NCBI RefSeq assembly: GCF_016734905.1
Contig: NZ_JAERPO010000002.1
Coordinates: 453,524-517,523, forward strand
Direction of reading: 5' to 3'
DNA length: 64,000 nt
Source: Sphingopyxis jiangsuensis
GTDB lineage: Bacteria > Pseudomonadota > Alphaproteobacteria > Sphingomonadales > Sphingomonadaceae
Shown piece after piece: positions 1-16,573 of this stretch (its first letter is position 1; each line of letters starts with the position of its first letter). The notes under the pieces were generated by a model. The model had not been told where the DNA came from, did not search any database, and saw only the letters and a program-made list of their open reading frames with translations. The position numbers were made by a program, and so were the translations under genes.

Positions 1-138
1 TATCTCGCGTCGCTGGGCGTCGACCCGAACCGCATCCAGGTCATCAGCTATGGCAAGGAACGTCCCGCAGCGATCGGATCGAACGAGGAAGCCTGGGCGC
101 AGAACCGCCGCGCGGTGACGGTCGTTATCGGACGCTGA
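1..138 (+). CDS. pal: Peptidoglycan-associated lipoprotein Pal, C-terminal end (partial)
   Basis: Only the last 45 codons are present, and the gene runs in from beyond the left edge. The tail reads SYGKERPAAIG followed by AWAQNRRAVTVV, the typical end of an OmpA-like peptidoglycan-binding domain as found in Pal, the outer-membrane lipoprotein of the Tol-Pal envelope complex. The N-A-Q-N-R-R-A-type stretch contributes the conserved arginine pair of that fold. The 3' end overlaps the convergent prepilin peptidase gene by 14 bp. Other OmpA-family lipoproteins end similarly, so Pal is the best but not the only reading. Confidence 0.8.
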   Translation, partial: YLASLGVDPNRIQVISYGKERPAAIGSNEEAWAQNRRAVTVVIGR

Positions 139-895
139 TCAGCAGCCACAGCGGCACCGCGGTCCACGCCGCGGCGCACGCGAAAACACCGAAGGGGACC
201 CGTCGCTCGCGGAGCGGCTGGTCCCCTTTTCCTTGAGCGATGAGCGCCCACGCGATCCCGCCCAAGCTGGCGAGAAGCAGGACCAGCGGCAGCGCCTGCC
301 AGCCGGTCCATGCGCCGATTGCCGCGACAAGCTTTGGGTCACCGCCGCCCATCCCCGTCGCCCCGCGACGCTTGCGATAGAGCCATGCGACCAGCGCGAG
401 CACGCCCCCACCAACGAGAGCGGCGATCCAGCGGTCGAGCAGGCCGGTGTCCAACAGCGGGCCGGCGAGCAGGATTCCCGCTATCGCCAGCAGCAGGTTG
501 AGCCGATCGGGCAGCCAGAAATGGCGCGCGTCGAGCAAGGCGAGCGGCAACAGCAGCCAGCCGAACACGGCCCAGATCCAACCCTGCACGCCCGGCAGCA
601 ACGCCAAGGCGCCCGCGCCGATCAGCGCCGCCGCCAGCTCGACGCTGCCGTGAAAGCGATCGATAGCCGCGCCGCAGTGGCGGCAGCCGCCGCGCAATAT
701 CAAAGCCGACACGAGCGGAACGAGATCGCGCGCGCCAACGGGCCTGGCGCACGCATCGCAGCGTGACCGCCCGGCGAGCGATTGCCCCTCTGGCCAGCGC
801 AGCACAAGCGTCGCGATAAAGCTGCCGAGGACCGCACCCAACAGTCCGGCGAGCGCGACGCCTGCGCCCCATGGCAAGGCGTCGATGGCGGTCAT
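125..895 (-). CDS. gspO: Prepilin peptidase GspO (A24 family)
   Basis: This is the last gene of the T2SS operon (256 aa). It is an inner-membrane enzyme that cleaves and N-methylates the pseudopilins GspG-K. The cytoplasmic N-terminal domain carries two CxxC pairs (Cys46/49 and Cys71/74) after a GSF motif at about residue 24. The catalytic aspartates fit D122 in LLDARHFWLPD and D186 in GMGGGD, the GxGD motif. Several hydrophobic segments follow. I chose the ATG at 895 because the reading frame upstream lies over gspN and has no prepilin peptidase character. The gene ends in a 14-bp convergent overlap with pal. Confidence 0.93.
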   Translation of the reverse strand: MTAIDALPWGAGVALAGLLGAVLGSFIATLVLRWPEGQSLAGRSRCDACARPVGARDLVPLVSALILRGGCRHCGAAIDRFHGSVELAAALIGAGALALLPGVQGWIWAVFGWLLLPLALLDARHFWLPDRLNLLLAIAGILLAGPLLDTGLLDRWIAALVGGGVLALVAWLYRKRRGATGMGGGDPKLVAAIGAWTGWQALPLVLLLASLGGIAWALIAQGKGDQPLRERRVPFGVFACAAAWTAVPLWLLISVR

Positions 896-897
896 GG

Positions 898-1614
898 TCA
901 GAAGCGGCCCGAAGTCGCCAGCATGAAGCCGCCCGAACCGGCCTTGAAGCCCATCGCGGCAAGCGCCGACGCCATCGCCGGATCGCCGCCTGCATCGATG
1001 GCAAGCTGCGCGCGATAGGCGCCGTCTGCACCAAAGGAAATCGTCAGCCGTTCCATTCCCGACTGGCTGCTCAGCGCCGCCTGTGCGCGCCCGCCCGCAC
1101 AGGAGAGCGGTCCCGCCAGGCCGCGCGACAGGTCGAGTCCGGCAATCGGCGCGGCGACCGACAACGCGATGCGGCCGCTCGCCGCGACGCATTTGCCCGC
1201 GCGATCGAAGCGCACCGCCGCACCTTCGAAGCCGACCGTATCGACCGGGATTGCTCCAAGGCCGCCGGCAAAGAGAGCCGTGCCGTTGACATCGGACAGG
1301 CCGCGCTCGCCGCCGCCGTGCAAACGCCCCGACAATGCCCCGAGCCTTTCGTCGGCGCGCGCGAATGCAAGTTCGGTACGTCCGCCAAGCAGGGCGAGCG
1401 GCGACAGGCTCGCCTCGACCGTCCCGAGCGGCAGCGCGCCGAGCCGCGCCTCGACCAGTTCGCCCGCCCAGATCGAGCCGCGCACCGTGCGCGCGCTGAT
1501 GCCCGCGTCATCTGCGCCCGACAATGCGAGCGCGAGGCGCATCGGAAAGGTCGCGATTCCGAGCAATAGTGCCAATGCTGCCGCAGCAGCGATCCAGCGG
1601 CGCCGCGCGCTCAT
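898..1614 (-). CDS. gspN: Type II secretion system protein N
   Basis: A 238-aa protein with one N-terminal membrane segment (about residues 8-28), followed by a beta-rich periplasmic domain with the start pattern VRGSIWAGELVEARLGALPLG that is typical of GspN. GspN is an accessory inner-membrane component of some T2SS. The start ATG at 1614 overlaps the gspM stop (ATGA), which indicates translational coupling. Assignment rests on position between gspM and gspO, size and the membrane-anchored layout; this family is poorly conserved. Confidence 0.82.
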   Translation of the reverse strand: MSARRRWIAAAAALALLLGIATFPMRLALALSGADDAGISARTVRGSIWAGELVEARLGALPLGTVEASLSPLALLGGRTELAFARADERLGALSGRLHGGGERGLSDVNGTALFAGGLGAIPVDTVGFEGAAVRFDRAGKCVAASGRIALSVAAPIAGLDLSRGLAGPLSCAGGRAQAALSSQSGMERLTISFGADGAYRAQLAIDAGGDPAMASALAAMGFKAGSGGFMLATSGRF

Positions 1615-2093
1615 CGTCCGCCCCTCCTGAGTTCGGCGGTCATGCCCACCGTCCCGTCGGCGGCGGGCGTGATGGTGAGCTGGTCGACGACGAACCCCTG
1701 CCCCTCTAGCGCCGCGAGCCAATCGGTCAGGACTGGCGCCTTTGCCGTGGCGATCGCTATCGTCGCCTGATCGGCACCGCGCGCCTCGTTGCGGTCGAGC
1801 GTCAGCCCGATTTCGCCCGCCGATTGTGACAGATATTGATCGATGGCGACCGCGCTCGCCGTGAGTGCGGCCGCGCCCGTCGAAGGCTCTGCGAGGAGTT
1901 TGACCTTTGCTGCGACGCGCCCTTCGCGCTCGAGTGCGGCGCGGTGCCGGCTATCCAGATCGGCAAATGCCGCGACGGCGGGGCGTCCGAGCGCCCAAGC
2001 GATCACGGCAACGGCCAGCGCCCCCGCTATCGCGACGAGCCATTGTTCGCGTCGAGACAGGCTCGACCACCAGTTTTTGACCGTTTCGATCAT
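1611..2093 (-). CDS. gspM: Type II secretion system protein M
   Basis: A 160-aa bitopic inner-membrane protein. It has a short cytoplasmic N-terminus (WWSSLSRREQWL), one transmembrane helix (about residues 18-36) and a periplasmic ferredoxin-like domain. The motif SLSRREQ before the helix is typical of GspM, which pairs with GspL in the inner-membrane platform. It overlaps gspL (ATGA at 2090-2093) and gspN (1611-1614). Confidence 0.9.
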   Translation of the reverse strand: MIETVKNWWSSLSRREQWLVAIAGALAVAVIAWALGRPAVAAFADLDSRHRAALEREGRVAAKVKLLAEPSTGAAALTASAVAIDQYLSQSAGEIGLTLDRNEARGADQATIAIATAKAPVLTDWLAALEGQGFVVDQLTITPAADGTVGMTAELRRGGR

Positions 2094-3247
2094 GGCACCG
2101 CCCGCACCGTAATATTGGCCATCTGCTGGCCGTCGGTTCCCGCCATCGGCTGCGCCGTGACGCGGTAGCCGCGCGCCTGCACGGCAATGAGCACCGCATT
2201 GATGTCCTCGACGCGCGGCGCGGCGAGCGTCGTCGTCAATGTGCCGTCGGTGCGGTGCGACAGCGTCTTGAGCGACACGCCGGGCGCGTCCGCCATCGCG
2301 TCGTAAAGCGCCGAGGCCGGGACAGAGAAGGCGAGTGGCCCGCCGCCCGCCGCCGCGAGCCGGCGATCGAGTTCAGCTTCGGCGGCCTCGGCGTCGGGGG
2401 CGTCGATCCCCGCCTCGGCCGCTGTCGCAACCGCAGCATCGTCGGCGCGCCTTGTGTCCGTCATCAGGCGAACCGCGTGAACCAGCGGAACGGCCAGGCT
2501 GACGACGAGCAACGCGATAAGCAACCGCTTGCCGAGCCGCAGCAATGCGGGATCGATTGCGAGGCGCCTTTTCGGCTTCCACGCCCCGGCCAGCAGGTCG
2601 AGCGGCGGGGCGGTTACCGACAGGAGAAGCGCCTCGCGGACCAGATCGGCATCGAGGGGGACAATCGCGCGGTCGCCGCCGATCAGCGCATCGATTTCGG
2701 GGTCCGAGCGAAAGGCACGGTCGACGCTCCGGATGATCGTTTCGCCGCCAAGCTCGGCCGCCCACAGGCTGTCCGGTTCGGGGGGCGGAACGATCGCCGC
2801 CGCCGGAATGATGGCCGCCGCGGAAAGTCCCTGCGACGCCAGCCAGTCGGTCCATGTTCGCATCGCCGCGTGCGTCGTCGCGGCGACGGGAAGCGCCTGC
2901 CCCGCTTCGGCGGGTTCGCCCGCCGCAATATGGAGCGTGGCGGGATCGCCGAGACTGGACTTCAGCGCATCGATACGCGCCGCGGCCGCAGCCTGCGCGG
3001 GCGCCGCGTCGGGATAGGCGAGCCAGCGAACGGGGACGTCGGCGGCGGGGGCTATCGCGACGAGACGCTCGTCCTCCGCGTCCTCGTCGGGGCGTTCCCA
3101 CGCGTCGGCCCAGCCATCGTCCTGGCCCGAATCGACGATGACCCCGTCATCGACGCGCAGCCAGGCGGGGCGCGCAGCCCCGCCATCGCGGCCGCCGTCG
3201 CCGAGCGCCGCCAGCGGGGGCAGCCACAGAATCAGCGTCCGTGTCAC
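2090..3247 (-). CDS. gspL: Type II secretion system protein L
   Basis: GspL (385 aa) links the cytoplasmic ATPase GspE to the inner-membrane platform. The cytoplasmic actin-like domain fills roughly the first 240 residues. One transmembrane helix (LLIALLVVSLAVPLVHAV) lies at about residues 253-270, and a periplasmic domain pairs with GspM. I chose the GTG at 3247, one base after the gspK stop. A longer frame back to 3319 would overlap gspK by about 70 bases and adds an Arg/Pro-rich leader unlike GspL. Confidence 0.88.
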   Translation of the reverse strand: MTRTLILWLPPLAALGDGGRDGGAARPAWLRVDDGVIVDSGQDDGWADAWERPDEDAEDERLVAIAPAADVPVRWLAYPDAAPAQAAAAARIDALKSSLGDPATLHIAAGEPAEAGQALPVAATTHAAMRTWTDWLASQGLSAAAIIPAAAIVPPPEPDSLWAAELGGETIIRSVDRAFRSDPEIDALIGGDRAIVPLDADLVREALLLSVTAPPLDLLAGAWKPKRRLAIDPALLRLGKRLLIALLVVSLAVPLVHAVRLMTDTRRADDAAVATAAEAGIDAPDAEAAEAELDRRLAAAGGGPLAFSVPASALYDAMADAPGVSLKTLSHRTDGTLTTTLAAPRVEDINAVLIAVQARGYRVTAQPMAGTDGQQMANITVRAVP

Positions 3248-3248
3248 C

Positions 3249-4259
3249 TCAGTCGCTCTCGCCCCAACTGCGACGCACGATAACCGGCGGCGCGGACCCG
3301 GCGACGGGTGCTCCGCCATTGGCGTCGATCAGCGAATGCGTCGTCAAAAACCCGTCCCCCAGAACCACATTCGTCCTCAATGCCAGCCAGCGGCTGGTCA
3401 CGGCGGCCTGCTCGGCGACATCGTCGGGCGGGTCGAACCGCTCGAGCGCGCGCGTCTGCCAGAATCGCACGCTGCTGCCATAGCCGCCCGCGGGCCGCTG
3501 GGCCAGCGCTGCACGAGCATCGGCAGTCCCGATTTCGCCCGGCATCAGCATCGCGACGAGCGGCGCCTGTTCGGGCGCGAGCGTATTGACGTTGAGCCGC
3601 ACCGGCTCGGCAAACGGGAGTACGCAGACCCACGGGCGCAAGCGGTCATAGATTTTCGGCGTGACGCCGCGCACCGCGCGCAGTTCGCTGACATCGGCCA
3701 TCTTGCGATTGGCGGGAAGATAAGCGGGCGACGTCGTGCGATAGGCGCTGTCCTCGGCGCCGAGCGGCCCTTCGACCGAATCGCTGTCGATCCAGTCGGC
3801 GCTTGCCCCGGCAATCGCCATCGCCTGGCCACGGTCGATGCCGAGCAGTGTCATCAACTCGGTGAATTGGCGGATTGCGCCCGCTCTTTGGCTGAGCCGC
3901 CCCGGCGCGGTTTCGGCGACCAGACTGTTGAGATTGAAGCAATTGCTGGCATCGGTCAGCCGGGCGCGTCCTTCGCCGCCGGGCAGCGGCAGCACGAATT
4001 CGCGTCCCAGCCAGCCGCCCGCGAGCGTCAGCCGCGTGCGGTCGCGCCCGACGAGGTCGGCGACGCGACGCAGCGCAATCTCTTCGGCGGCGAAGGCAAA
4101 GGCGCGCCCCTGATCGACCGTCGACGCGCTTCCGGCGATGCGCGTCGCGAGCGTCAACCGGTCGAGCGCGGTTGCGGCAATCACCGCCATCACCGCGACC
4201 AGCAACAATACGCTGAGCAGCGCCGCGCCGCGCTCGCCGCTGTGCGTCAGGCGGGTCAT
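3249..4259 (-). CDS. gspK: Type II secretion system minor pseudopilin GspK
   Basis: A 336-aa minor pseudopilin, larger than the others as expected for GspK, which caps the pseudopilus tip with GspI and GspJ. The leader SGERGAALLSVLLLVAVMAVIA contains the prepilin cleavage Gly followed by a hydrophobic helix. GspK is the pseudopilin that lacks the usual Glu at +5, and here Leu sits in that place. The large inserted domain contains IDSDSVEGPLGAEDSAY, the acidic region seen in GspK. The start ATG at 4259 overlaps the gspJ stop. Confidence 0.93.
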   Translation of the reverse strand: MTRLTHSGERGAALLSVLLLVAVMAVIAATALDRLTLATRIAGSASTVDQGRAFAFAAEEIALRRVADLVGRDRTRLTLAGGWLGREFVLPLPGGEGRARLTDASNCFNLNSLVAETAPGRLSQRAGAIRQFTELMTLLGIDRGQAMAIAGASADWIDSDSVEGPLGAEDSAYRTTSPAYLPANRKMADVSELRAVRGVTPKIYDRLRPWVCVLPFAEPVRLNVNTLAPEQAPLVAMLMPGEIGTADARAALAQRPAGGYGSSVRFWQTRALERFDPPDDVAEQAAVTSRWLALRTNVVLGDGFLTTHSLIDANGGAPVAGSAPPVIVRRSWGESD

Positions 4260-4924
4260 GGTGCCTCCTCCACCGTCGCAGGCGGCGGGGGCGGAGTCGG
4301 CGCGGTGAGGAAAAGCATCGTCAAGGGCGCACGTCCCGACCGCGTCAACTGCACCTCCACCGCAAGCGGCAGCCGGTCGCCCGGTTCGGAGGTCCAGCCA
4401 TCGCCCCAATTGCCGAGCGCATCGCGATAGCGGACCCGCACCGATGCGACGTCGCGCAGCAGCGGGTCGCCCGCGCCGAGCATCGCACCGTCGAGCATCG
4501 GCTGCGCCGCGCGCCGCCATTCGCTGCCGCTGAGCGCATAGCCGACGCGCTCGACGCCGGGACGCGATATACCGTCGAAATTGGCAGCGCCCGAATGCAC
4601 AAAGGCGAAGCCCGTCGACGACCCGATGAAGGCCGGCACGGGCTCGCCCGACGCCCCGCGCGTCGAGCGCTGCACCGCCTGTGCAAGGTCATTCGCCATC
4701 ACCGCTCGCAGCCGGTTGACGCCGCTCATCGCCCTCAGGCGCTCCTGCACCGCGTCCTGCGTGTCGACGCTGCTGCGAAGCAGACCGACCCCCATCGCCG
4801 CAATCGCCGCAAACAGTGACAGCGCGACGAGCATTTCGACCAGCGTGAAACCGCGCTGGCCGTGCGGCCAGTGCGCCCCGGCGCAAGCCGGAGCCCCGCG
4901 ATGCCATGGGAAACATCGCCTCAT
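4256..4924 (-). CDS. gspJ: Type II secretion system minor pseudopilin GspJ
   Basis: A 222-aa minor pseudopilin with the prepilin signal QRG-FTLVEMLVALSLF (cleavage after Gly25, Glu at +5). GspJ forms the tip complex with GspI and GspK. The 25-residue leader is longer than usual and contains Cys and His residues, but no internal ATG, GTG or TTG gives an obvious shorter start. The C-terminal end is Pro-rich (TPPPPPATVEEAP). The ATGA overlaps with gspI and gspK show coupled translation. Confidence 0.92.
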   Translation of the reverse strand: MRRCFPWHRGAPACAGAHWPHGQRGFTLVEMLVALSLFAAIAAMGVGLLRSSVDTQDAVQERLRAMSGVNRLRAVMANDLAQAVQRSTRGASGEPVPAFIGSSTGFAFVHSGAANFDGISRPGVERVGYALSGSEWRRAAQPMLDGAMLGAGDPLLRDVASVRVRYRDALGNWGDGWTSEPGDRLPLAVEVQLTRSGRAPLTMLFLTAPTPPPPPATVEEAP

Positions 4925-5283
4925 CGGCCCGGCCGGATGATCGTCAGCGCCGCCTGCCCGCGCCCCTCAGCCGGACGGACGAGCAGGTCGATGCGGAGCA
5001 GGCTGTCGTCGGCGGTGCGCGCGACGCGCTGATCGATGCGCCACTGCCTTCCGCCATTGGTGACCGACGATGCACTTGCGCCGATCGTCGGCGGTGCCGG
5101 GTCGGTCCAGAGCTCGACCGCGCGGTTCTGCGCGACGACGCCCGCGATCGTGCTTTCGTCGAGATCGCCGGCGGTGCGCACCGCATAGGCATCGAGCCGC
5201 ACGAGCGTCAGCGCGGCGATGCTGATGATGCTGAGCGCAACGAGCATTTCGAGCAGGGTGAACCCCGCAGCGTCCGAGGACAT
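4921..5283 (-). CDS. gspI: Type II secretion system minor pseudopilin GspI
   Basis: A 120-aa minor pseudopilin. Its short leader MSSDAAG is followed by FTLLEMLVALSIISIAAL, the cleavage site and N-terminal helix. I prefer the ATG at 5283 because it gives a 7-residue leader normal for this family. A GTG at 5307 in the same frame would add eight residues and overlap gspH by 11 bases; neither start has a strong ribosome-binding site. GspI initiates the pseudopilus tip with GspJ and GspK. Confidence 0.9.
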   Translation of the reverse strand: MSSDAAGFTLLEMLVALSIISIAALTLVRLDAYAVRTAGDLDESTIAGVVAQNRAVELWTDPAPPTIGASASSVTNGGRQWRIDQRVARTADDSLLRIDLLVRPAEGRGQAALTIIRPGR

Positions 5284-5296
5284 TGGATGTTCGACT

Positions 5297-5788
5297 TTAG
5301 CGGCCACGGCTGACCTCGCCCGTCGCCGAAATTCGCACCGTCTCGCGCGCGCCGCCTCCCGACAGGACCAGCGCTTGCGGCGTCGGGCTGGTGCCGACGC
5401 GGTCGAAGATCAGCCGCGCGACCGGCTGCCCGTCGTCGCCGGCGAAGGCGACGTCGGATGGCCAGTTGCGCTGGGCAAAGGTGCGCCCGGGAAGCGGCTG
5501 CCAGCTTCCCTCTATGCGGCGCTCGAATCCATAGCCCGAGGGCGCGAAGCGCACCGCGACGCTCCGCCCTTCGACGACCGCAATGTCGCGCGCGGCGGCA
5601 AGCCGCGCGGCGAGCCGGTCGGCCTCGCTGCGCACCGTCTGCTGCTCGTCGGGAATGGTAAGCACGACCGCCGTCGCGGCGAGTGCGAGGATCATCAGCA
5701 CGACCATCAGTTCGACGAGCGTGAACCCGCCGGTGCGCGAGCGGCGGCGACCCCCGTCCCGCTCAGCTGTCTCCGCGAATATCGGCAT
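5297..5788 (-). CDS. gspH: Type II secretion system minor pseudopilin GspH
   Basis: A 163-aa pseudopilin with the prepilin motif TGG-FTLVELMVVLMILAL at residues 19-35 (Glu26 is +5). The body has the GspH-like pattern of an early helix (EADRLAARLAAARDIAVVEGR) followed by beta strands. It overlaps the end of gspG by 26 bases, so the two are translated from overlapping frames. It is the fourth core pseudopilin, placed between the major GspG and the tip complex. Confidence 0.9.
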   Translation of the reverse strand: MPIFAETAERDGGRRRSRTGGFTLVELMVVLMILALAATAVVLTIPDEQQTVRSEADRLAARLAAARDIAVVEGRSVAVRFAPSGYGFERRIEGSWQPLPGRTFAQRNWPSDVAFAGDDGQPVARLIFDRVGTSPTPQALVLSGGGARETVRISATGEVSRGR

Positions 5789-6254
5789 TGTCGTCGGTCC
5801 CGCCGGGCGCGCCGTCGGCGCCGAACGACCAGACGTCGAACGGCTGCCCGTTCAGCCCCGGCGCCTGGTAATTATAGGGACGCCCCCACGGATCGTCGGG
5901 CAGCTTCTTGATATAGCCGCCGCGGCGGTAGCGTTGGGGCTGCGCGAGCGCTGGCGGCGCGGTGACGAGCGCATTGAGGCCGTCGGTCGTCGCCGGATAG
6001 GTCAGATTGTCGAGTCGATATTGTTCGAGCGCGGTTTCGAGCGTCGCGATGTCGGCCTTCGCCTTGGTCACCATCGCGCGATCCTGGCTCGGCAGCACAT
6101 TGATCATGACGACCGTCGCGAGCAGGCCGATGATGAAAATGACGACCATCAACTCGGTGAGCGTAAAGCCGCGCTCGCCGCGACGGCGGCGGCGCGTGAC
6201 CGGCGGACGCCGGGGGTCGAACATCAGGCGGATGAAAAGCTGCATCAGCGACAT
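5763..6254 (-). CDS. gspG: Type II secretion system major pseudopilin GspG
   Basis: The major pseudopilus subunit (163 aa). The prepilin site is ERG-FTLTELMVVIFIIGLLATVV at residues 27-47, followed by the conserved helix (AKADIATLETALEQYRLDN) and the GspG signature segment KKLPDDPWGRPYNYQAPG. Calcium-site residues typical of GspG are plausible in the C-terminal GADGAPGGTDDNADI. The start is uncertain: ATG codons at 6254, 6245 and 6224 are in frame and none has a clear ribosome-binding site. Confidence 0.94.
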   Translation of the reverse strand: MSLMQLFIRLMFDPRRPPVTRRRRRGERGFTLTELMVVIFIIGLLATVVMINVLPSQDRAMVTKAKADIATLETALEQYRLDNLTYPATTDGLNALVTAPPALAQPQRYRRGGYIKKLPDDPWGRPYNYQAPGLNGQPFDVWSFGADGAPGGTDDNADIRGDS

Positions 6255-6257
6255 TTA

Positions 6258-7478
6258 TTATAGTCCTGCGAGGTTCTGCAACTGGAGGATCGGCAGAAGG
6301 ATGGCGAGGATGATGAGGGCGACGAACGACCCCATAACGACGATTATGACAGGTTCGAGAAGCGCCATCGACGCGGCGGTGAAACGATCGAACTCGCGCT
6401 CCAGATACTCGGCCGCACGTTCGAGCATTACCTCGAGCCGCCCGGCGCTCTCGCCGCTGGCGGTCATATAGACGAGCAGCGGCGGAAAGACCCCGGCATC
6501 GCGCAGCGCCGCCGACAGGCTGCCGCCCGCACGCACCTGGTCGATGAGCCCCGCGGTCGCGCCGGCGAGCGCGGCGTTGCGGATCGTCGGCACGGTGAGC
6601 CGCAACCCCTCGACGAGCGGCAGGCGGCTCGAAACCATCGTCGACAGCGTGCGCGCGAAGCGCGCGGCATGGAGGTCGCGAAGCAGGCGGCCAAGCAAAG
6701 GCAGGCGGAGCAGCCGCGCGTCGACGCGCGCCTTGAAGGCGGGCCGGCGCATCGCGCTGACCCAGCCGGCGCCCGCTCCTGCGAGCAGCAACAGGACAAG
6801 CCACCACCAGTTCGCGGCAACGCTGGAAATCGCGATCACCGCGCGCGTCAGGAAGGGCAATTGCTGGCCAACGTCGGTGAACTGCTCGACGACGCGCGGG
6901 ACAACGAAGATCATCAACGCGGCCACGACGCCGATCGCAACGATCGCGAGCACCACCGGATAGGCGAGCGCGGCGATCAGCTTGCCACGCACTTCCGCTT
7001 GGCGTTCGAGCAGGTCGGCGAGCCGCGCGAGAATGACGGTGAGGCTGCCCGTCGTCTCGCCCGCCGCGACCATCGCGCGATAGAGCGGCGGAAAGCTGGG
7101 CGATTGCCGCGCCATCGCGTCGGCGAGGCGGCGGCCCTCCAGCAGCCCCGCATGGACGTCGCCGATCACGAGCCGCGCGCTTTCGGCCTCGCTCTGCCGC
7201 GTCAGTGTCCGCAGCGCCTCTTCGAGCGGCGCGACTTCGGCGAGCGTCGCGAGCTGGCGCGTGAACAGCGCGAGTTCCTTGCTGCTGAGCCGCGTGCGGC
7301 GAAATGCGAAGAGCGACCGTCCCGCCGCGCGCGGCGGCGCGGGCTCGACCGCGACGACGTGGAAATGGCGGCGCACGAGGTCGGCGCGCGCGGCATCGTC
7401 GTTCGCCGCGGTCAATCGCCCCGTGCGTTCGCGCCCCTTTGGGTCGATCGCCACATAGCGATAATCAGGCATCGACAT
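6258..7478 (-). CDS. gspF: Type II secretion system inner-membrane platform protein GspF
   Basis: A 406-aa polytopic platform protein with two repeated GspF domains and three main transmembrane helices (around residues 170-195, 215-240 and 375-400). Characteristic segments are LALFTRQLATLAEVAPLEEAL near residue 68 and the second-domain match FARTLSTMVSSRLPLVEGL. The N-terminus MPDYRYVAIDPKGRERTG is the typical GspF start. ATG codons at 7478 and 7472 are both possible. The first overlaps gspE by 14 bases. Confidence 0.95.
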   Translation of the reverse strand: MSMPDYRYVAIDPKGRERTGRLTAANDDAARADLVRRHFHVVAVEPAPPRAAGRSLFAFRRTRLSSKELALFTRQLATLAEVAPLEEALRTLTRQSEAESARLVIGDVHAGLLEGRRLADAMARQSPSFPPLYRAMVAAGETTGSLTVILARLADLLERQAEVRGKLIAALAYPVVLAIVAIGVVAALMIFVVPRVVEQFTDVGQQLPFLTRAVIAISSVAANWWWLVLLLLAGAGAGWVSAMRRPAFKARVDARLLRLPLLGRLLRDLHAARFARTLSTMVSSRLPLVEGLRLTVPTIRNAALAGATAGLIDQVRAGGSLSAALRDAGVFPPLLVYMTASGESAGRLEVMLERAAEYLEREFDRFTAASMALLEPVIIVVMGSFVALIILAILLPILQLQNLAGL

Positions 7479-8961: not shown

Positions 8962-11159
8962 GGCTGATCTCCCTCCAAGGGCGGGGTCGCGGCGGCTTCC
9001 GAAGGCGGCACCTCTGTGGGGGTGACCTGACCGTCGGGACCGCGCATCGCAGGCAGATTGACCGGCCCCACCGTCACGTCGGCAGCAGTCGCCGCGCTGG
9101 GGACGGGCGGCACCGTGCCCAGATAATCGCGCACCAGCGTGTCGATCGCCGGCTCCTCGCCCGGATTGCGCTGGAGCTGGAAGTCGCGGACATAGCCATA
9201 ACGTCGCGCCGTCAGCGCGGCATTGTCGGCACGGTTGCGCAGGATTGTCGGGCGGATGAAGACCATCAGGTTCGTTTTGGACCGCGAGCGGCTGCGCGAC
9301 TTGAACAACTCGCCGAGCAGCGGAATGTCGCTGAGCAGCGGAATACGCTCGATCGTCCGCCGCTCGTCGTCGTTGAGCAGTCCGCCGATCGCCAGAATTT
9401 CGCCGTCATCGACCGTCAGCACCGTCTCGAACGAACGCTTGTTGAGGATGAGGTCGCTGTTGCGCGACGAAACCGGCCCCGCGACGCTCGATACTTCCTG
9501 GCGCAGGAACAGTTTGACCTCGCCCGCGCCATTGACCTGCGGCGTGACCTCCAGCTTGATGCCGACTTCCTCGCGCTGGACGGTACGGAAGGCGTTGTCG
9601 AAATTGTCCGACAGCGCCTCGCCGGTGGTGATCGGCACTTCCTGTCCGACCAGGAACTTCGCCGCCTGATTGTCGAGCGTGACGATGTGCGGCGTCGCGA
9701 GCAGGTTCGACGTCGTGTCCGACTTTACCGCATTGATGATGGCGCCAAAGATCGTGTCCTTGCCGATGTCGCCAGCGAATCCTGCGAAACCGCCGGTCGC
9801 CGAGAGGAGCGACGCCGCTGCCGCTTCCTGCAGGCTGTTCCCGAGCGCGCTCGACGTCTGCGTAACAACCGTCGTGCCATCGACGGTGGTCTTGTCCTCG
9901 GTGAGCTTGGTCGCGGCATAGGCGCCGCCCAGCGTGAAGATATTGGGCTGAGCATTGCTATAATTGGTCGCAACGAAGGGGATGTTCTTACCGCCGAGCA
10001 GGAACTGCACGCCGAGCCGCTTTGCCGCATCGTCGCCGATTTCGACGACGATCGCTTCGACGAGAACCTGCTCGCGGCGGCTGTCGAGCTGGCGGATCAG
10101 CTCGCCGAGCATCCGCTGGACCTCGCTGTTTGCGGCGACGATGATCGCATTGGCGCCCTCATAGCGCGTGACGATGGCCGGGCCGCGCGTCGCGATACTG
10201 CCGCCTGCGCTGCCGACGGTCGCCGAGGCGCCGGAGTTTGCTGCGACAGGCGCTGCTCCGCTGCCATCGCCCGACGAGCCGCTGGCGGGCGGAAGCCCGG
10301 CCTTCTGCGCCGGGTCGCTGCCGCCGCCGACGAGCTGTTGCAGGGTCGGCAGCAAGGTTTCGGCGTTGGCGTGCTGGAGCCAATAGACGCGCAACTCGGT
10401 GCCGCCCGCCGCTTTCTGATCGAGATCGCGCGCCATCGACACGAAGCGCGCGACGAGCGCCTGGTCGCCGCGCAGCGCGATCGCGTTGCTGCTGTCGATC
10501 GGCACGATTGCAACGGGGGCCTGTGCGCCCTCGCCCGCCGCAGGAACCAGCGCCTGCAAGGCAGCGGCGATCTCGCGCGCGCCCGCATTTTTGAGCGTGA
10601 CAATCTGGCTCGTCGAACTGTCGCGATCGATACTCGACGCCAGCGCGCGGATGCGGCGGATATTGTCGGCAAAATCGGCAACGACCAGGCTGTTGGCGTT
10701 GCGGTTGGCGGTCAGCGAACCCTGCGGGCTGACGAGCGGGCGGAGCGTCTCGACGGCTGCCACCGCGTCGATATGACGCAGGCGGATAATCTCGGTCACA
10801 AACTGGTTTTGCGTCGCACGGTCGCTGCCGATCCGTCCGGGTTGCGCCGCGGCGCCGTCGATCGGCTGGATGCGGTAGGCGCCATTGGGGCCGGGAACCG
10901 CGACAAGGCCGTTCGAGCGCAAGGTCGCGAGGAAAATCTCGAAATATTCGCTGCGCGACAACGGGCGGTCGGTGACCACCGACACCTTGCCGTTGACGCG
11001 TCCGTCGATGACGAAAGTGCGCCCGGTGACGCGCGCGGCATCCTGGATGAAGGCGCGGATGTCGGCATCGCGGACGTTCAGCGTATATTGCGCGAACGCC
11101 GGAACGGGCGCGGCCGAAACCAGCGCGGCGGCGAGCATCAGGGAAAGTCTGAAACGCAT
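8958..11159 (-). CDS. gspD: Type II secretion system secretin GspD
   Basis: The outer-membrane secretin channel (733 aa) with a Sec signal peptide (MRFRLSLMLAAALVSAAPVPAFA). The N0 domain starts at YTLNVRDADIRAFIQDAARVTGRTF, followed by N1-N3 repeats. A Gly/Ser/Ala-rich insertion lies near residues 270-305. The secretin core contains VPITTGEALSDNFDNAF and LAIGGLLNDDERRTIERIPLLSDIPLLGELFK. No pilotin gene (gspS) or gspAB is visible nearby, so the secretin may insert by itself or use a pilotin encoded elsewhere. It lies five bases after gspC. Confidence 0.96.
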   Translation of the reverse strand: MRFRLSLMLAAALVSAAPVPAFAQYTLNVRDADIRAFIQDAARVTGRTFVIDGRVNGKVSVVTDRPLSRSEYFEIFLATLRSNGLVAVPGPNGAYRIQPIDGAAAQPGRIGSDRATQNQFVTEIIRLRHIDAVAAVETLRPLVSPQGSLTANRNANSLVVADFADNIRRIRALASSIDRDSSTSQIVTLKNAGAREIAAALQALVPAAGEGAQAPVAIVPIDSSNAIALRGDQALVARFVSMARDLDQKAAGGTELRVYWLQHANAETLLPTLQQLVGGGSDPAQKAGLPPASGSSGDGSGAAPVAANSGASATVGSAGGSIATRGPAIVTRYEGANAIIVAANSEVQRMLGELIRQLDSRREQVLVEAIVVEIGDDAAKRLGVQFLLGGKNIPFVATNYSNAQPNIFTLGGAYAATKLTEDKTTVDGTTVVTQTSSALGNSLQEAAAASLLSATGGFAGFAGDIGKDTIFGAIINAVKSDTTSNLLATPHIVTLDNQAAKFLVGQEVPITTGEALSDNFDNAFRTVQREEVGIKLEVTPQVNGAGEVKLFLRQEVSSVAGPVSSRNSDLILNKRSFETVLTVDDGEILAIGGLLNDDERRTIERIPLLSDIPLLGELFKSRSRSRSKTNLMVFIRPTILRNRADNAALTARRYGYVRDFQLQRNPGEEPAIDTLVRDYLGTVPPVPSAATAADVTVGPVNLPAMRGPDGQVTPTEVPPSEAAATPPLEGDQP

Positions 11160-11164
11160 AGGAC

Positions 11165-12049
11165 CTATTGCTTCGAGAGAAAAATGGCGACGGGCACGAC
11201 GCTGGCGCCGCGTTCGATTTCAAGCGAGATGCGCGCGCCTGGGGCGAACTGGCTCGCAAGCGAGGCGGCGTCGCCCGCCGAGCCGATCGGCCGGCCGTTG
11301 ACCGAGCGGATAACGTCGCCAGGACGCAGCCCCGCCGCGCGGAAAGCCGCGCCATCGCCCTGCGGCTGGACGACGAGGCCCGTTACGCGTCCCTCTTCGG
11401 TCCGGGGCGCAAAACCGACGCCGCTCCGCAGCGCGGCCGGCGACATTTCGCCGCCCGCTGCTGCCCCGGTTGCAGGCGCAGATCCAAGCTCGGGCGTCGG
11501 GGCAGGCAAAGGGGAGGCCGGGGTGACGATGGGCGCGTCGCCGCTCTGATCGAGGAACAGGCTTTCGCGCTCTCCGCCGCGGTCGAGCAGCACATGATCG
11601 AACGCAATGCCGACAAGCCGGACCCCCGGTGCAATGTCGTCGCCAACCGCATAGCTCGCCTGTTCGCCGTCCTCGCCGCCAATAATCGCCGAACCGCCGC
11701 CCGTGGCCGCGTTGAGATTGACGCCGTAAAGCGTCAGGCCGAGCGCGGTCACCGTTGCACTTGCCGGACCCTGTTGCCCGCTGCGAAAAAAAGGATCGAG
11801 GCTGGTGAAGATGGCGCGGCGCTCAGCGGGCGAGGCGATGACAGCTGTCTGGGGCTCCCACGCCCCCAGCGGCGACAAGGGGACGACGAGGGCCCAAAGC
11901 AAGCGGACAGCCTGCCAGACGAGAAGCGCTCCCAAAAGCGCAACGACCAGCTGCGGGCCAATAGCACGCGGCGATGCCCTGCGCAGGCGAAGCCACGATG
12001 GCAGCGCGCGCGGCAGCCGTACGGCCGATCCGGACATCAGCGTCGCCAT
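11165..12049 (-). CDS. gspC: Type II secretion system protein C (PDZ type)
   Basis: The first gene of the T2SS operon (294 aa). It is a bitopic inner-membrane protein with an N-terminal cytoplasmic segment, a transmembrane helix at about residues 34-56, and a homology region (LGLTLYGVNLNAATGGGSAIIGG) that docks on the secretin. A C-terminal PDZ domain follows (FRAAGLRPGDVIRSVNGRPI). GspC is thought to recruit substrates. The upstream region holds a PhoB-like box at 12107-12139. Confidence 0.93.
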   Translation of the reverse strand: MATLMSGSAVRLPRALPSWLRLRRASPRAIGPQLVVALLGALLVWQAVRLLWALVVPLSPLGAWEPQTAVIASPAERRAIFTSLDPFFRSGQQGPASATVTALGLTLYGVNLNAATGGGSAIIGGEDGEQASYAVGDDIAPGVRLVGIAFDHVLLDRGGERESLFLDQSGDAPIVTPASPLPAPTPELGSAPATGAAAGGEMSPAALRSGVGFAPRTEEGRVTGLVVQPQGDGAAFRAAGLRPGDVIRSVNGRPIGSAGDAASLASQFAPGARISLEIERGASVVPVAIFLSKQ

Positions 12050-12106
12050 GAATTCGTCCCTGTCCCCCAGCTGAAAAACGTCATGCGAATCGCCTAGGGG
12101 CGAAGC

Positions 12107-12139
12107 GTGACAATCAGTTGACGGGAAGATTACAGTTTT
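12107..12139 (-). promoter_or_regulatory. PhoB-box-like tandem repeat upstream of gspC
   Basis: Three 11-bp units run in phase, 58-90 bases before gspC. Read on the minus strand the 7-mers are CTGTAAT, CCGTCAA and TTGTCAC, each followed by four spacer bases. The PhoB consensus is CTGTCAT-N4 repeated, and the matches are 6/7, 5/7 and 5/7. After the last unit come eight bases and then CCTAGG (12093-12098), a possible -10 region. The same arrangement occurs upstream of the lipoprotein gene. This is read from sequence and no binding has been shown. Confidence 0.6.
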
Positions 12140-12178
12140 TTGTCATGGGCGCGAGTCCGCGACCGCGCCGAACTGGTC

Positions 12179-12206
12179 GAGGCCCCTCCCGCACGGGAGG
12201 GGCCTC
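12179..12206 (-). terminator. Probable terminator after the TonB-dependent receptor
   Basis: A near-perfect inverted repeat, GAGGCCCCTCCC and GGGAGGGGCCTC around a short GCAC loop, starts 9 bases beyond the receptor stop codon. It lies between the receptor gene and the gspC promoter, so it separates the two transcription units. It lacks a clear U-tract. Confidence 0.6.
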
Positions 12207-12214
12207 TACACCGG

Positions 12215-14911
12215 TCAGAATTTGAGCGACGCGCTGAGCGAGAAAGTCCGGCCCAGCTTGTAGCGGTTCAGGAAGATGCGGTTGTCGCCGGCTTCCTGAA
12301 CTTCTTTATAGGTGCGCCCGGTCAGGTTGCGCGCCTCGAACTTCAGTTCGATTTCCTTGTTGAGCAGGTTGATCCCCTGCCGCGCGACGAAATCGAGCGA
12401 GATGCCCGGCTTTTCGCGGATGTCGGGCTGACCCGACGGACCGCGGCTGGTCACGCGCGGGCTGGCATAGGTGAGCAGAAGCGTCTGCTGCGACAGCCGG
12501 TCCTGATCCTCGAGACCGAACTGGAAATTGACCAGATGATCCGACTGGCCGGTCATCGGCGAACCGTCGAAGAAAAAGTTCGCCGCATCCTGCACCACGC
12601 CGTTGATGACCGTCGTGTCGTTGGCCCCGACTTTGATCTCCGACTGGGTATAGGTGTAGTTGCCGATCAGGACGAGGCGGCGGCTTTGCCAGAAGGGCGC
12701 GTCCGACATGGTATCGAGCGGGAAATATTTCTGCACTTCCAGCTCGGCGCCATAGAGCGTCGCCTTGGGCGCGTTGGCAAAGCTCGAATTGACCGCCGAG
12801 TCCGACACCGAGGTATAGGTCTCGATCGGATTGTCGATCGACTTGTAGAAGCCCGCCGCCGTCAGGCGCTGGTCGCGCCCGAAATACCATTCATAGCGCA
12901 GCTCGGCGTTCCACAGTTCGCTGTCGGTAAGCGACGGGTTGCCGCGGAACAGGCGGTTCGAATCGGTGTCCTGATAGATTTGCGCAATCAGTTCGCGGAA
13001 CTGCGGGCGCGCGATCGTCTTTGACCCGTTCACGCGGATCTGCATGTCGGGCGCGATTTCCCACGTGACCGTCAGCGCGGGCAGCCAATAGTCGTTGTTG
13101 AGGTCGGTTTCGACGATCGCGCTGCCGCCCGTGTTGAACAGGTCGATCGGCACGACCGTCTGCTTGCCTTCCTCGTAGCGGACGCCTGCATTGACGTTGA
13201 CGCCGGGGACGATTTCGGCCTGCAGCTGTGCATAGCCGGCGTGCGTCGTCAGCTTTGCGTCGAAGGCTGCCGTGCCGTCCTGCGCCGAGGTTTCCTGCAG
13301 CGTGATGTCGTAAAGCTGGATCGTGGCGTCCGACAACAGATAGTCGGGACGCAGCTGCGTCACCGAAATCGGCAGGTTCGAGCCGCGAAACTGGAAGGCG
13401 CGGCGGACCGAGACGCGGTGCGTGTCGGTATAGGCATAGCCGACCGTCGCGGTGATACGCGGGGCGAGCTCGTACGACAGGTCGACGCCGCCCGACCACA
13501 GATCTTCGTTCAGATCCGAAAAGGCGATCGTCGCATCGCCGCGATTGCCGCCGAGGTCGTTGACGAACTTGTCGCCCGTCGGATCCTGGTCGGTCGGCAG
13601 GTTGGTGCGGACATAGGTGAAGCCGCGCTCATAGGGCGCTTCGCGCTGCGAATTGGCATAGGCGCCGCGCAGGTCGACCTGCAACCGGTCGAACTCCAGC
13701 TCGGTCACGATCTGCGTGTTGATCAGCTGCCGTTCGAACCAGGCCGTATCCTGCTTCAAAATATCGCGTTCGGACTGGTTGCGATCGGTACCGAGGCCAA
13801 GCCGCGCCTGCTTCAGCGTGTCGCGGATATAAAGGTTGGTCCAGCGGAACTTGTGATCGCCGAGCTCGAGCCCGAAGCCGAGCAGCCCGTTCACGACGAT
13901 GCGGTTGTCGGTGATGACGCGGTTATAGCTCGTCTGCGGATCGCCCGACAGATCCTGGTTCAGCGACGTTTGCTGGAGCGTGTCGCGCGTGCGCCACTTG
14001 TTGCTGATCCCTGCGGTGGCGATGATGCCAAGTTCGCCATTGGGCAAGGTAACGGTCGTGCCGCCGGTGACCCCGGCCGACCAATTGACCGGAATATGGT
14101 TGTTCTGCTGGAGCAGGCTCGTCTCGGCGTTGACCAGCTCCATCTGGATCGCTTCGAGGTCGTCCTGGGTGAAATCGGCCCCTTCGAGGATCGGCTTGCC
14201 GCTGTTCAGCGCCGCCTTGAGCAGCGGCGGAATGTCGCGCGTGCCGTCGTCGAAACCGGTCCAGTCGGTGTCGCTGCCATAATAGGTATAGCCGAGCTGG
14301 TTGGTCGTCTCGCTATCCCAGCCGATACCGCCCGAAAAGGTCAGGAAGGGTTCGCGCGGCGTCGCCTTGGTCGTCAGGTTGATGACGCCGCCGCCAAATT
14401 CGCCGGGGAAGTTCGCCGAATAGCTTTTCTGGACGAGCGTCGAATCGATCACGTTGGACGGAAAGATGTCGAGCGGAACGACGCGCTTCAACGGCTCGGG
14501 GCTCGGCAGCGGCGAGCCGTTGAGCAGTGCGAGCGAATAGCGGTCGCCGAGGCCGCGGACATAGACAAAGCCCCCGCCAACGACCGAAAGGCCGGTCACG
14601 CGCTGGAGCGAACCTGAAATGTCGCCCTCGCCCGTGCGCGCAATGTCGGCCGACGACAGGACCGAGACCACTTCAGGCGTCGCACGCACGACATTGGGCG
14701 TGTAGCGGCCGGTGACGACGATTTCGCTGTTGGCGCCGCCCGGGATCGAAACGTCGAAATCCTCGTCCTGCGCCGCGGCATCGTCGGTCGCCTGGTCGGC
14801 GGTCGGTTCGTCGGTCGCGGGTTCGCTTGCCGCGTCCTGCGCAAATGCGGACGGCGCGACGAGGGCGGTGCTGAGGAGGAGCAGGCTGGCGAAGATCGGC
14901 CGCTTTGTCAT
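12215..14911 (-). CDS. TonB-dependent outer-membrane receptor
   Basis: An 898-aa receptor with a signal peptide (SLLLLSTALVAPSAFA), an acidic Asp/Ala linker, a TonB-box-like SEIVVTG, a plug domain (DISGSLQRVTGLSVVGGGFVYVRGL is split across its core) and a 22-strand barrel ending in FSLSASLKF, with a terminal Phe. It imports an unknown substrate through the outer membrane using TonB energy. I chose the ATG at 14911, which is preceded by GGGGA at about 8 bases. It follows the lipoprotein gene on the same strand by 84 bases and shares its Pho-box promoter, so phosphate or a phosphorylated compound is a plausible substrate by inference. Confidence 0.9.
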   Translation of the reverse strand: MTKRPIFASLLLLSTALVAPSAFAQDAASEPATDEPTADQATDDAAAQDEDFDVSIPGGANSEIVVTGRYTPNVVRATPEVVSVLSSADIARTGEGDISGSLQRVTGLSVVGGGFVYVRGLGDRYSLALLNGSPLPSPEPLKRVVPLDIFPSNVIDSTLVQKSYSANFPGEFGGGVINLTTKATPREPFLTFSGGIGWDSETTNQLGYTYYGSDTDWTGFDDGTRDIPPLLKAALNSGKPILEGADFTQDDLEAIQMELVNAETSLLQQNNHIPVNWSAGVTGGTTVTLPNGELGIIATAGISNKWRTRDTLQQTSLNQDLSGDPQTSYNRVITDNRIVVNGLLGFGLELGDHKFRWTNLYIRDTLKQARLGLGTDRNQSERDILKQDTAWFERQLINTQIVTELEFDRLQVDLRGAYANSQREAPYERGFTYVRTNLPTDQDPTGDKFVNDLGGNRGDATIAFSDLNEDLWSGGVDLSYELAPRITATVGYAYTDTHRVSVRRAFQFRGSNLPISVTQLRPDYLLSDATIQLYDITLQETSAQDGTAAFDAKLTTHAGYAQLQAEIVPGVNVNAGVRYEEGKQTVVPIDLFNTGGSAIVETDLNNDYWLPALTVTWEIAPDMQIRVNGSKTIARPQFRELIAQIYQDTDSNRLFRGNPSLTDSELWNAELRYEWYFGRDQRLTAAGFYKSIDNPIETYTSVSDSAVNSSFANAPKATLYGAELEVQKYFPLDTMSDAPFWQSRRLVLIGNYTYTQSEIKVGANDTTVINGVVQDAANFFFDGSPMTGQSDHLVNFQFGLEDQDRLSQQTLLLTYASPRVTSRGPSGQPDIREKPGISLDFVARQGINLLNKEIELKFEARNLTGRTYKEVQEAGDNRIFLNRYKLGRTFSLSASLKF

Positions 14912-14939
14912 GTGGATTGTCCCCAAGAAAATGTAGGAA

Positions 14940-14976
14940 GGGAGCGGGCCAGCCCTTCGAAGGCTCGCCCGCTCCC
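14940..14976 (-). terminator. Hairpin between lipoprotein and receptor genes
   Basis: The arms GGGAGCGGGC and GCCCGCTCCC pair perfectly, with further AGCC/GGCT pairing inside. It sits in the 84-base gap between the lipoprotein stop and the receptor start. It could be a partial terminator or an mRNA-stabilising structure that makes the lipoprotein more abundant than the receptor. Reading on along the minus strand, a moderately T-rich run follows. Confidence 0.5.
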
Positions 14977-14995
14977 CGCATTGGATCGCGAGCGA

Positions 14996-16573
14996 TCAGG
15001 TCGTCGGGATGGCGGTGCAGCTGCCGCTCGTTGAACCGAAGCCCGCCGTCGCCGAGTTGCAAGTCCAGCCCTGGTACCAGGTGTCGTTGGCGTCGCGGAC
15101 GGCGCCGACGTAGGCGGTGGTGTCAAAGAAGGCGTTGATCGTCTTCGCGTCGAACGGCGTGAAGCCCGTTTCGGTCGCGCCGTTGACGAACAGGTTCGTC
15201 AGCGTCGGCGTGTAGGTCGTGCGGTTGTTGGTGCCCGCTTCGAAGATCGCCTGAACCTGCGCGTCGGTCACCGCCGGGCTGCCGCCGCCGCGGAACGGCG
15301 TCGCGTTGCACTGCATCGACATCGAGAAGAACTTCGGCGGTCCCGCTTCGTCGAGCGCCGGGTCGGCAGGCTGCGTCGTCGACGTGCTGTCGATGCGCAG
15401 GCAGCGGATACCGGGAGCGACAATCAAGCCGTTGGCAAAGGTGTAATCGGCGCCGCCGCGAATACGGATTGCGGCGCCGTTCCCCGCGGCATTGTTGCGA
15501 TGGATGAAGGTGAAGTTCGAGATGGTGACATTCTGGCGCGGCGTCGTGTTTTCATTGCCGTCCGAGTCGATTTCCATCATCGAGTCGCCGACCGCGCCGC
15601 CGGCACGGTGGATCGCGATCGCATATTGGATGTTGCCCTTGTAGCCGACGTCGGTGTCGAAGCTGTCATCCTCGGCTCCGGTAACGATCATGTGCTTGAA
15701 GTTCGGGCGGCCGCCGAAAACTTCCATGCCGTCGTCCGAGCTGTTGTGAATCTGGATGTGGTCGAACTGGGTGCCCGAACCGACGCCCGACGGCGTCAGG
15801 CCCTGCAATTCCTTGTCGGCGCTGAGCACGAAGCCCGAATAGCGGATCTGCACATAGGACATGCGGCCCGAATTGTCGGCGGGCTGCGCACCGCCATAGA
15901 GCGCGTTCGACGTGCCTTCGGTGTCGCGTTCGCACGCCGCGGTGCCCGGCGTCGCTCCCGGAGCAAGACAGTCGGTGATCGGCGCGCGGCCGAGCAGGAC
16001 GACACCGCCCCACAGCTGCGACGTCTGGTCGTTCGCCGAACCGACGACGTTGCCGCGACCGGTAAAGACGATCGGCTGCGTCGGCGTGCCCACAGCGTCG
16101 ATCTTGTTGCCGCGGTTGACGACAAGGAACGAAACGCCCGTCGCGCCAAAGATGGTGACGCCCGGGTCGATCGTCAGCGTGACGTCGGTGTTGGTGCTGG
16201 CCGCCCCCTGGTCGGTGCCGACATCGACACGGCCGGGAAGCGAATAGATGACGCCGGCAACCTTGGGGATCGCGGTGGTCGAATTGAAGCGGGCGGGGAA
16301 ACCACAGTTGCGCCACGTGCCTTCATTGCCCGTGATCGTGCCGAGATCCGACAACTGGTCGGCACCGGCGATGGTCGGGCAATTGGCGGCCGGCGTAACG
16401 GTCGCGGGCGGCGTCGGGGTGGGGGTCGGTGTCGGCGTCGGAGTCGGGGTGGGCGTCGGAACGACAATGACCCCCTCGCCCGGCGATGCAACGCCGTCGG
16501 CGCCGCAGGCGGCCAGAATTGAACAGGCCACGCCGCTGAGCATGACCATACGAACGCGTGCAAAAGCCGCCAT
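14996..16573 (-). CDS. Exported lipoprotein, ElpS-like, candidate T2SS-linked protein
   Basis: A 525-aa protein with a lipobox (SILAAC, Cys23) and Gly at +2, which is compatible with outer-membrane sorting. After the lipid anchor comes a Pro-Thr linker of eight PT units, then a repetitive Asn/Gly/Thr-rich body (VTLTIDPGVTIFGATGVSF, GRMSYVQIRYSG, FDHIQIHNSSDDGMEVFGG) that suggests a right-handed beta-helix. No enzyme motif is recognisable. It is the first gene of a unit with the TonB receptor, next to a complete T2SS and behind a PhoB-like box. In Caulobacter the phosphate-starvation lipoprotein ElpS is encoded beside a T2SS cluster, so I infer an analogous role. Homology to ElpS itself is not proven here. 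Confidence 0.75.
   Translation of the reverse strand: MAAFARVRMVMLSGVACSILAACGADGVASPGEGVIVVPTPTPTPTPTPTPTPTPPATVTPAANCPTIAGADQLSDLGTITGNEGTWRNCGFPARFNSTTAIPKVAGVIYSLPGRVDVGTDQGAASTNTDVTLTIDPGVTIFGATGVSFLVVNRGNKIDAVGTPTQPIVFTGRGNVVGSANDQTSQLWGGVVLLGRAPITDCLAPGATPGTAACERDTEGTSNALYGGAQPADNSGRMSYVQIRYSGFVLSADKELQGLTPSGVGSGTQFDHIQIHNSSDDGMEVFGGRPNFKHMIVTGAEDDSFDTDVGYKGNIQYAIAIHRAGGAVGDSMMEIDSDGNENTTPRQNVTISNFTFIHRNNAAGNGAAIRIRGGADYTFANGLIVAPGIRCLRIDSTSTTQPADPALDEAGPPKFFSMSMQCNATPFRGGGSPAVTDAQVQAIFEAGTNNRTTYTPTLTNLFVNGATETGFTPFDAKTINAFFDTTAYVGAVRDANDTWYQGWTCNSATAGFGSTSGSCTAIPTT
16412..16459 (-). repeat. Hexanucleotide repeat encoding a (Pro-Thr)8 linker
   Basis: Eight tandem six-base units of the form CCN-ACN encode PTPTPT after the lipid anchor of the lipoprotein. 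Third positions vary (CCG/CCC, ACG/ACC/ACT/ACA), so the coding sequence is selected rather than recently slipped. Such linkers lift a surface domain away from the membrane and are protease accessible. Confidence 0.85.

Follow-up and report, generated by a model that had tools for sequence, protein, structure and literature searches.

An ElpS-type lipoprotein and a TonB-dependent receptor form a putative phosphate-controlled pair beside a dispensable type II secretion system in Sphingopyxis

The minus strand of a 64-kb window of the Sphingopyxis jiangsuensis genome (contig NZ_JAERPO010000002.1, positions 453,524 to 517,523) carries, in this order, the genes for a lipoprotein (14996-16573), a TonB-dependent receptor (12215-14911) and a type II secretion system (T2SS; gspC-gspO, 125-12049). 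Genome comparisons indicate that the lipoprotein and the receptor belong together as a pair irrespective of the T2SS, and that the T2SS is a favoured yet dispensable neighbour of this pair. The gene set is already known from Caulobacter crescentus, where Le Blastier et al. (2010) described cc0170 (ElpS), cc0171 (receptor) and gspC-N (PMC2996285); the window holds the Sphingopyxis-type version. We give about an even chance to the reading that the pair is a PhoB-controlled importer that would take up a phosphorus-containing ligand, beside a T2SS that would export other enzymes.

A profile scan of genome contigs gave 519 relatives, the best 80 of which form our 80-locus set. The receptor gene lies directly downstream of the lipoprotein gene, on the same strand, in 78 of these 80 loci; the contigs of the remaining two stop immediately behind the lipoprotein gene. 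We also surveyed 197 genomes of the order, with the lipoprotein called at E 1e-10 and the receptor at E 1e-140. The lipoprotein was present in 141 genomes and the receptor in 140, every one of them lipoprotein-positive. Lipoprotein places were listed for all but three of the 140, and the receptor is right behind the lipoprotein in 136 of these 137; the remaining pair is split over two contigs. The lipoprotein-receptor unit put forward in the original prediction is thus borne out (78/80 loci, 140/141 genomes).

Distances between the proteins are consistent with this pairing. Lipoprotein and receptor distances correlate at 0.858 (75 loci). For the 18 loci with gspD and gspE, the correlations are 0.925 (lipoprotein-receptor), 0.783 (lipoprotein-gspD), 0.831 (receptor-gspD) and 0.934 (gspD-gspE). 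The partial correlation is 0.79 between lipoprotein and receptor given gspD, and 0.07 between lipoprotein and gspD given the receptor; all these values are descriptive, since the distances share species and are thus non-independent.

T2SS genes occur in 24 of the 80 loci (18 of the 53 that have 9 kb on both sides) and are divergent in three. Of the 197 genomes, 93 have GspC and 105 have GspG, and 54 of the 141 lipoprotein genomes have neither. This count does not support the original prediction where that is taken to make the three parts a single obligatory system. Together with the enrichment and proximity given below, it is the reason why we call the T2SS favoured but dispensable. A cargo gene did not come to light near the T2SS among the five proteins examined, at 17.0-22.8 kb of the window. 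By Pfam, none of 10 neighbour proteins was a phosphatase; these came from 9 loci in which the pair has no T2SS next to it.

The original prediction had placed the lipoprotein, the receptor and a complete T2SS side by side on one strand, and all three are found there. The features, all on the minus strand, are as follows.

16680-16741, minus strand: PHO-box-like repeat 5' of the lipoprotein gene, with three good half-sites at 16708-16680 and weaker ones in register to 16741
14996-16573, minus strand: ElpS-type lipoprotein, 525 aa, with lipobox Cys23, Pro-Thr linker and predicted beta-helix body
12215-14911, minus strand: TonB-dependent receptor, 898 aa, Pfam Plug and barrel, putative partner of the lipoprotein
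12179-12206, minus strand: inverted repeat, rich in G+C, separating the receptor gene from gspC; possible terminator (by eye)
12107-12135, minus strand: PHO-box-like repeat 5' of gspC, three half-sites (PHO matrix)
11165-12049, minus strand: gspC (Pfam T2SSC)
8958-11159, minus strand: gspD, secretin (Pfam Secretin, Secretin_N, N0 domain)
7465-8961, minus strand: gspE, ATPase (Pfam T2SSE)
6258-7478, minus strand: gspF (Pfam T2SSF)
5763-6254, minus strand: gspG, major pseudopilin (Pfam T2SSG, NCBIfam TIGR01710)
5297-5788, minus strand: gspH (Pfam GspH)
4921-5307, minus strand: gspI (Pfam T2SSI)
4256-4924, minus strand: gspJ (Pfam T2SSJ)
3249-4259, minus strand: gspK (NCBIfam T2SS_GspK, Pfam T2SSK)
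2090-3319, minus strand: gspL, start uncertain and perhaps further downstream (NCBIfam TIGR01709 above cut-off, Pfam T2SSL below)
1611-2093, minus strand: gspM (Pfam T2SSM)
898-1614, minus strand: gspN (Pfam T2SSN)
125-895, minus strand: gspO, prepilin peptidase, 256 aa (Pfam Peptidase_A24, A24_N_bact)

The T2SS gene set is complete: it has the secretin, the ATPase, the F protein, the major pseudopilin and the minor ones, the C, L, M and N proteins and the prepilin peptidase. GspC to GspK, GspM, GspN and GspO are all above the Pfam cut-off, and GspL passes a cut-off only with NCBIfam TIGR01709. The GspO start at 895 gives a protein shorter than the longest open reading frame (ORF). The terminator scan did not list the inverted repeat at 12179-12206, which has no T tract, and the window has no Rfam match at gathering scores. 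The lipoprotein promoter has a plus-strand tRNA-Leu (gag) gene (16875-16961) immediately upstream of it. The nearest relatives of the window are Sphingopyxis records, with up to 92% identity in one segment.

We searched for phosphate promoters with a PHO-box matrix of three CTGTCAY half-sites at an 11-bp period. When both strands of the whole window are scored, the top two sites fall before gspC (12135-12107, score 24.2) and before the lipoprotein gene (16708-16680, score 21.0). For each of these upstream regions, none of 300 first-order Markov shuffles reached the observed score. The 84-nt leader of the receptor gene has no PHO-like site (score -7.1), and the receptor is therefore probably co-transcribed with the lipoprotein. 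The shared promoter design proposed in the original prediction was right for the lipoprotein and gspC and wrong for the receptor, leaving two PHO-like promoters and not three.

The same signal was sought in relatives by comparing 300 bp of upstream DNA plus 15 bp of gene with 4000 random pieces of the same loci; loci with short upstream DNA or a late-starting match were dropped (9 of 80 for the lipoprotein). Lipoprotein upstream regions exceeded the 95% level in 66 of 71 cases and the 99% level in 30. For gspC the counts were 22/23 and 15/23, and for the receptor 4/74 and 0/74; no signal was seen before gspD (0/23) or gspE (0/22). The lipoprotein signal is independent of an adjacent T2SS, being present in 47 of 51 regions without one and in 19 of 20 with one. 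Predicted PHO boxes at the promoters thus place both operons in a putative PhoB regulon. This agrees with the phosphate-starvation link drawn earlier, as does the listing of the T2SS in the Caulobacter PhoB regulon in a 2024 study (PMC11208175).

Elsewhere in the same genome, PHO-like sites precede a PhoX gene and a gene that we take, by eye, to be pstS. The three PhoD and three Phosphodiest matches have no upstream PHO-like site (best score 1.1). Four of 20 further sites score at least 14, and none of the 20 precedes a phosphatase recognisable by eye. One of these four is a perfect two-half-site match (G000:C2:552511-552527) before an ORF that we read by eye as a JmjC/cupin-type hydroxylase; this would be unexpected in a phosphate regulon and is possibly due to chance. 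Sites were also seen at two loci with scores of 23.1 and 18.0. Their proteins are presumably, by eye, a NUDIX plus PhoU-like protein and another TonB-dependent receptor, respectively, so the phosphate regulon of this organism may include a second TonB-dependent receptor.

The lipoprotein starts at the ATG at 16573 and has an L-A-A-C lipobox with Cys23 and Gly at +2. From Cys23 to the first conserved Cys there are 41 residues, mostly Pro, Thr, Ala and Gly. The AlphaFold2 model of the body is a parallel beta-helix (mean predicted local distance difference test score, pLDDT, 90.5). The earlier description of a lipoprotein with a Pro-Thr linker and a beta-helix-like body is thereby upheld. By sequence, the body has no solved relatives; one weak match covers residues 39-83, largely linker. 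A single-protein search found no paralogue in the genome, the second match being residues 12-49 (signal peptide and linker). We expected a different tether length near a T2SS if the tether serves protease release, and saw none (median 40.5 in 22 sequences with an adjacent T2SS vs 41 in 51 without, p 0.86).

Two side observations concern length variation in this protein. The DNA of the Pro-Thr linker (16409-16460) is a degenerate 6/18-bp tandem repeat and a likely site of length change between strains. In addition, the 27 lipoprotein-positive genomes of the order that lie outside the family of the window show two or three profile matches. Among the places listed, these are mostly within one ORF of approximately 910-1040 aa (for example G343:C1:523670-526513 and G350:C30:32673-35522; also loci L010/L011), suggesting a tandem-duplicated ElpS. 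The receptor is present in 26 of these 27 genomes.

The receptor starts at the ATG at 14911 and matches Pfam Plug and TonB_dep_Rec_b-barrel. It has no further Pfam domain at E 0.01 and hence no N-terminal signalling domain; TonB-dependent transducers carry an N-terminal STN signalling domain. A single-sequence search found no solved relatives of the receptor, and a profile search found CirA-type receptors and PqqU.

A single-protein search found the lipoprotein in 9 of 289 genomes of the class, and it is therefore not general in Alphaproteobacteria. The three-part set does occur beyond the genus, as the original prediction had asked of it: it turned up under the record titles Sphingobium, Sphingomonas, Brevundimonas and Luteimonas, and also in a single metagenome-assembled genome (MAG) titled Candidatus Sulfopaludibacter. 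The MAG contig has the order lipoprotein, receptor, gspC-G. Candidatus Sulfopaludibacter is an acidobacterial genus, and the contig may reflect transfer or mis-binning.

A distant branch was examined in the order around a Luteimonas-titled genome (G481), where the lipoprotein profile matches 61 of 150 genomes. Of the 20 loci returned, 17 were more distant, and 16 of these 17 had no receptor match within their flanks. The receptor came to light only in wider stretches, 16 of which were chosen from the 61. It was near the lipoprotein homologue in 15 (in the 16th the contig ends), with a DUF3450 gene in 11 and a T2SS in one. An upstream PHO-like site was in the top 5% of 380-bp windows for 14 of the 16. 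In the one cluster checked with Pfam (L158), genes for DUF3450, two MotA/ExbB proteins, ExbD, TonB, a TPR protein and the receptor are divergent from the lipoprotein homologue; as judged from these matches, a TonB motor rather than a secretion system accompanies the pair there.

These data suggest the following model. In low phosphate, PhoB would turn on the two neighbouring operons. The lipoprotein would get to the cell surface without the T2SS and be held there on a flexible tether of approximately 41 residues, where it and the receptor from the adjacent gene may act as one import unit. The beta-helix, with its conserved acidic ladder, would bind or trim a phosphorus-containing ligand and, perhaps in a lid-like manner, hand it over to the receptor for uptake with TonB energy. 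The gspC-O T2SS would export phosphate-mobilising enzymes (phosphatases or nucleases) encoded elsewhere in the genome. The best candidate cargo that we saw in this genome is PhoX, which has a twin-arginine (Tat)-like start and a PHO-like site of its own.

Several observations weigh against this model. The PHO-box matrix rests on a consensus, the random pieces used for relatives were mostly coding, so that A+T-rich intergenic DNA may gain score, and 5 of 71 lipoprotein upstream regions fall below the 95% level. The two-half-site pattern occurs 117 times in the genome vs 66 for a reversed control (approximately 1.8x); it is common, and single weak sites therefore carry little meaning. In the distant branch, two loci (L162 and L171) fail the PHO test, and L171 is the sole locus there with a T2SS. 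By eye, the signal peptide of two other homologues (L144 and L157) lacks a lipobox, so tethering is not universal.

The T2SS is also more than an incidental companion. The lipoprotein occurs in 84 of the 93 genomes with GspC and in 57 of the 104 without it (Fisher p 1.7e-8); for GspG the figures are 87 of 105 and 54 of 92 (p 2.4e-4). Both p values come from non-independent genomes and are uncorrected for kinship. Lipoprotein and GspC are at most 12 kb apart in 62 of the 80 genomes with both placed (84 have both). Given the raised frequency and the proximity, the T2SS is therefore not a chance neighbour, and receptor distances also track gspD distances (0.83). In Caulobacter, deletion of elpS leaves phosphatase activity unchanged, rich medium supports expression of gspE and gspL, which poor medium raises just 1.7-fold, and cc0171 is constitutive by RT-PCR (reverse transcription PCR; data not shown there), which fits poorly with co-transcription (PMC2996285).

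Finally, the fold matches of the predicted beta-helix are compatible with binding or with catalysis and do not separate them. The lipoprotein could instead be an extracellular enzyme, such as a hydrolase or a lyase acting on glycans with or without phosphate groups, and the receptor would import its product with no need for lid-like contact. We regard this as rather unlikely. Most of the proteins with a similar fold are carbohydrate-active (alginate epimerase/lyase, PL6, polygalacturonase, tailspikes), and eight acidic residues (D280, D281, E284, D302, D303, D306, D308 and E334) reach a conservation of at least 99% among 78 sequences, the two Asp pairs being 22 residues, or one helix rung, apart. 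This spacing is reminiscent of GH28, and we count it towards an enzyme. Some distant homologues look unlipidated, and Flavobacterium relatives have been modelled on polygalacturonase, with one of them, FI, the most abundant exoprotein (PMC8115612). However, at E 0.01 the lipoprotein matches nothing in Pfam or NCBIfam, and hence has no SusD-like domain and no enzyme family, with no match to the GH28 polygalacturonase or PL6 alginate lyase sequence families. Furthermore, the 78-sequence alignment lacks any Lys or His that reaches 90% conservation. PL6-type chemistry uses basic residues, which also counts against an enzyme of that kind. Alkaline phosphatase activity was absent from ElpS of Caulobacter, whether refolded or immunoprecipitated (PMC2996285).

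The lipoprotein might also be T2SS cargo of the pullulanase kind, brought to the surface by the neighbouring machine, which we consider improbable. The genes are adjacent in 24 of 80 loci and mostly within 12 kb as counted above, the PHO-like promoter design is common to both operons, and the conserved Cys residues in the lipoprotein alignment fit periplasmic folding. Against this are the 54 of 141 lipoprotein genomes without GspC and GspG, lipoprotein distances that track the receptor and not gspD, and a tether of the same length with or without T2SS adjacency. In Caulobacter, ElpS is lipid-anchored at the surface independently of the T2SS and stays there after T2SS deletion; its release is T2SS-dependent, and a T2SS-dependent protease is thought to shed it (PMC2996285). 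The T2SS-substrate role, one of two options in the original prediction, was therefore dropped as the leading view, on the genome counts and the Caulobacter export data. Regulation rather than import, with the receptor as a sensor or the lipoprotein as an activator of a secreted phosphatase, seems to us very unlikely. It would fit the higher secreted phosphatase activity after ElpS overexpression and the sensing role for cc0171 considered by those authors, but deletion of cc0171 did not stop ElpS production, nor did loss of elpS alter phosphatase activity (PMC2996285). The receptor also has only Plug and barrel by Pfam, and TonB motor genes are its neighbours in the one distant cluster checked.

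Returning to the importer model, what is new here is the pairing of lipoprotein and receptor without a T2SS and, in the distant branch, a private TonB motor. The pair retains its phosphate signal where the T2SS is absent or not adjacent. Therefore, ElpS function is best approached via the receptor and its ligand, not via secretion. The phosphate promoter restricts the ligand search to phosphorus compounds and permits a direct growth test. Among the matches listed, in which subscription journals are mostly uncovered, we recognised no later literature in which the pair is regarded as an importing unit in Proteobacteria.

The window can be compared with several known systems. The Hxc T2SS of Pseudomonas exports the phosphatase LapA under phosphate limitation and is not known to have a lipoprotein-receptor pair. 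The T2SS of the window would likewise run under phosphate limitation; unlike for Hxc, no cargo gene was found alongside. The closest likeness is to the Caulobacter elpS locus, a kinship suggested earlier and supported by the same three-part order: the lipoprotein, directly followed by the TonB receptor, with an adjacent complete gsp cluster. Three Brevundimonas-titled loci (L082, L089 and L090) carry the same pair before a T2SS. Unlike in Caulobacter, gspO follows gspN on the same strand (in Caulobacter it is on the opposite strand), and PHO-like sites precede both operons; for Caulobacter, constitutive cc0171 and barely changed gspE and gspL were reported. Caulobacter ElpS is induced by phosphate starvation, and a similar organisation was named in Xanthomonas campestris, Hyphomonas neptunium and Sphingomonas alaskensis (PMC2996285), the last now placed in Sphingopyxis by taxonomy.

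In Flavobacterium, the low-phosphate lipoproteins FI and FII (PUSIII/PUSIV) occur with TonB-dependent transporters and FIII is an orphan; two uncharacterised low-phosphate lipoproteins sit downstream of TonB transporters, and the authors relate these lipoproteins to that of Caulobacter (PMC8115612). These are systems of Bacteroidetes, the published passages on them mention no T2SS, and the likeness to the window is by description only. A broader proposal is that an ElpS-type beta-helix lipoprotein and its receptor represent a third design of TonB import aided by a lipoprotein, the other two being SusCD and BtuBG. It would be dedicated to phosphorus ligands in Alpha- and Gammaproteobacteria and have lineage-specific helpers, either a T2SS or a private DUF3450-ExbB-ExbB-ExbD-TonB motor. 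We offer this tentatively and find it somewhat doubtful, the more so because some homologues have no lipobox. BtuG has a beta-propeller fold. The window lipoprotein has neither the SusD-like domain of SusC-SusD and PusC-PusD (Pfam, E 0.01; beta-helix model) nor a BtuG-type lid, as judged from its model. BtuB-BtuG (PMC10404256) and SusC-SusD (PMC8115612) are described as lid-and-channel importers; in the window, a predicted beta-helix would instead take the part of the lid.

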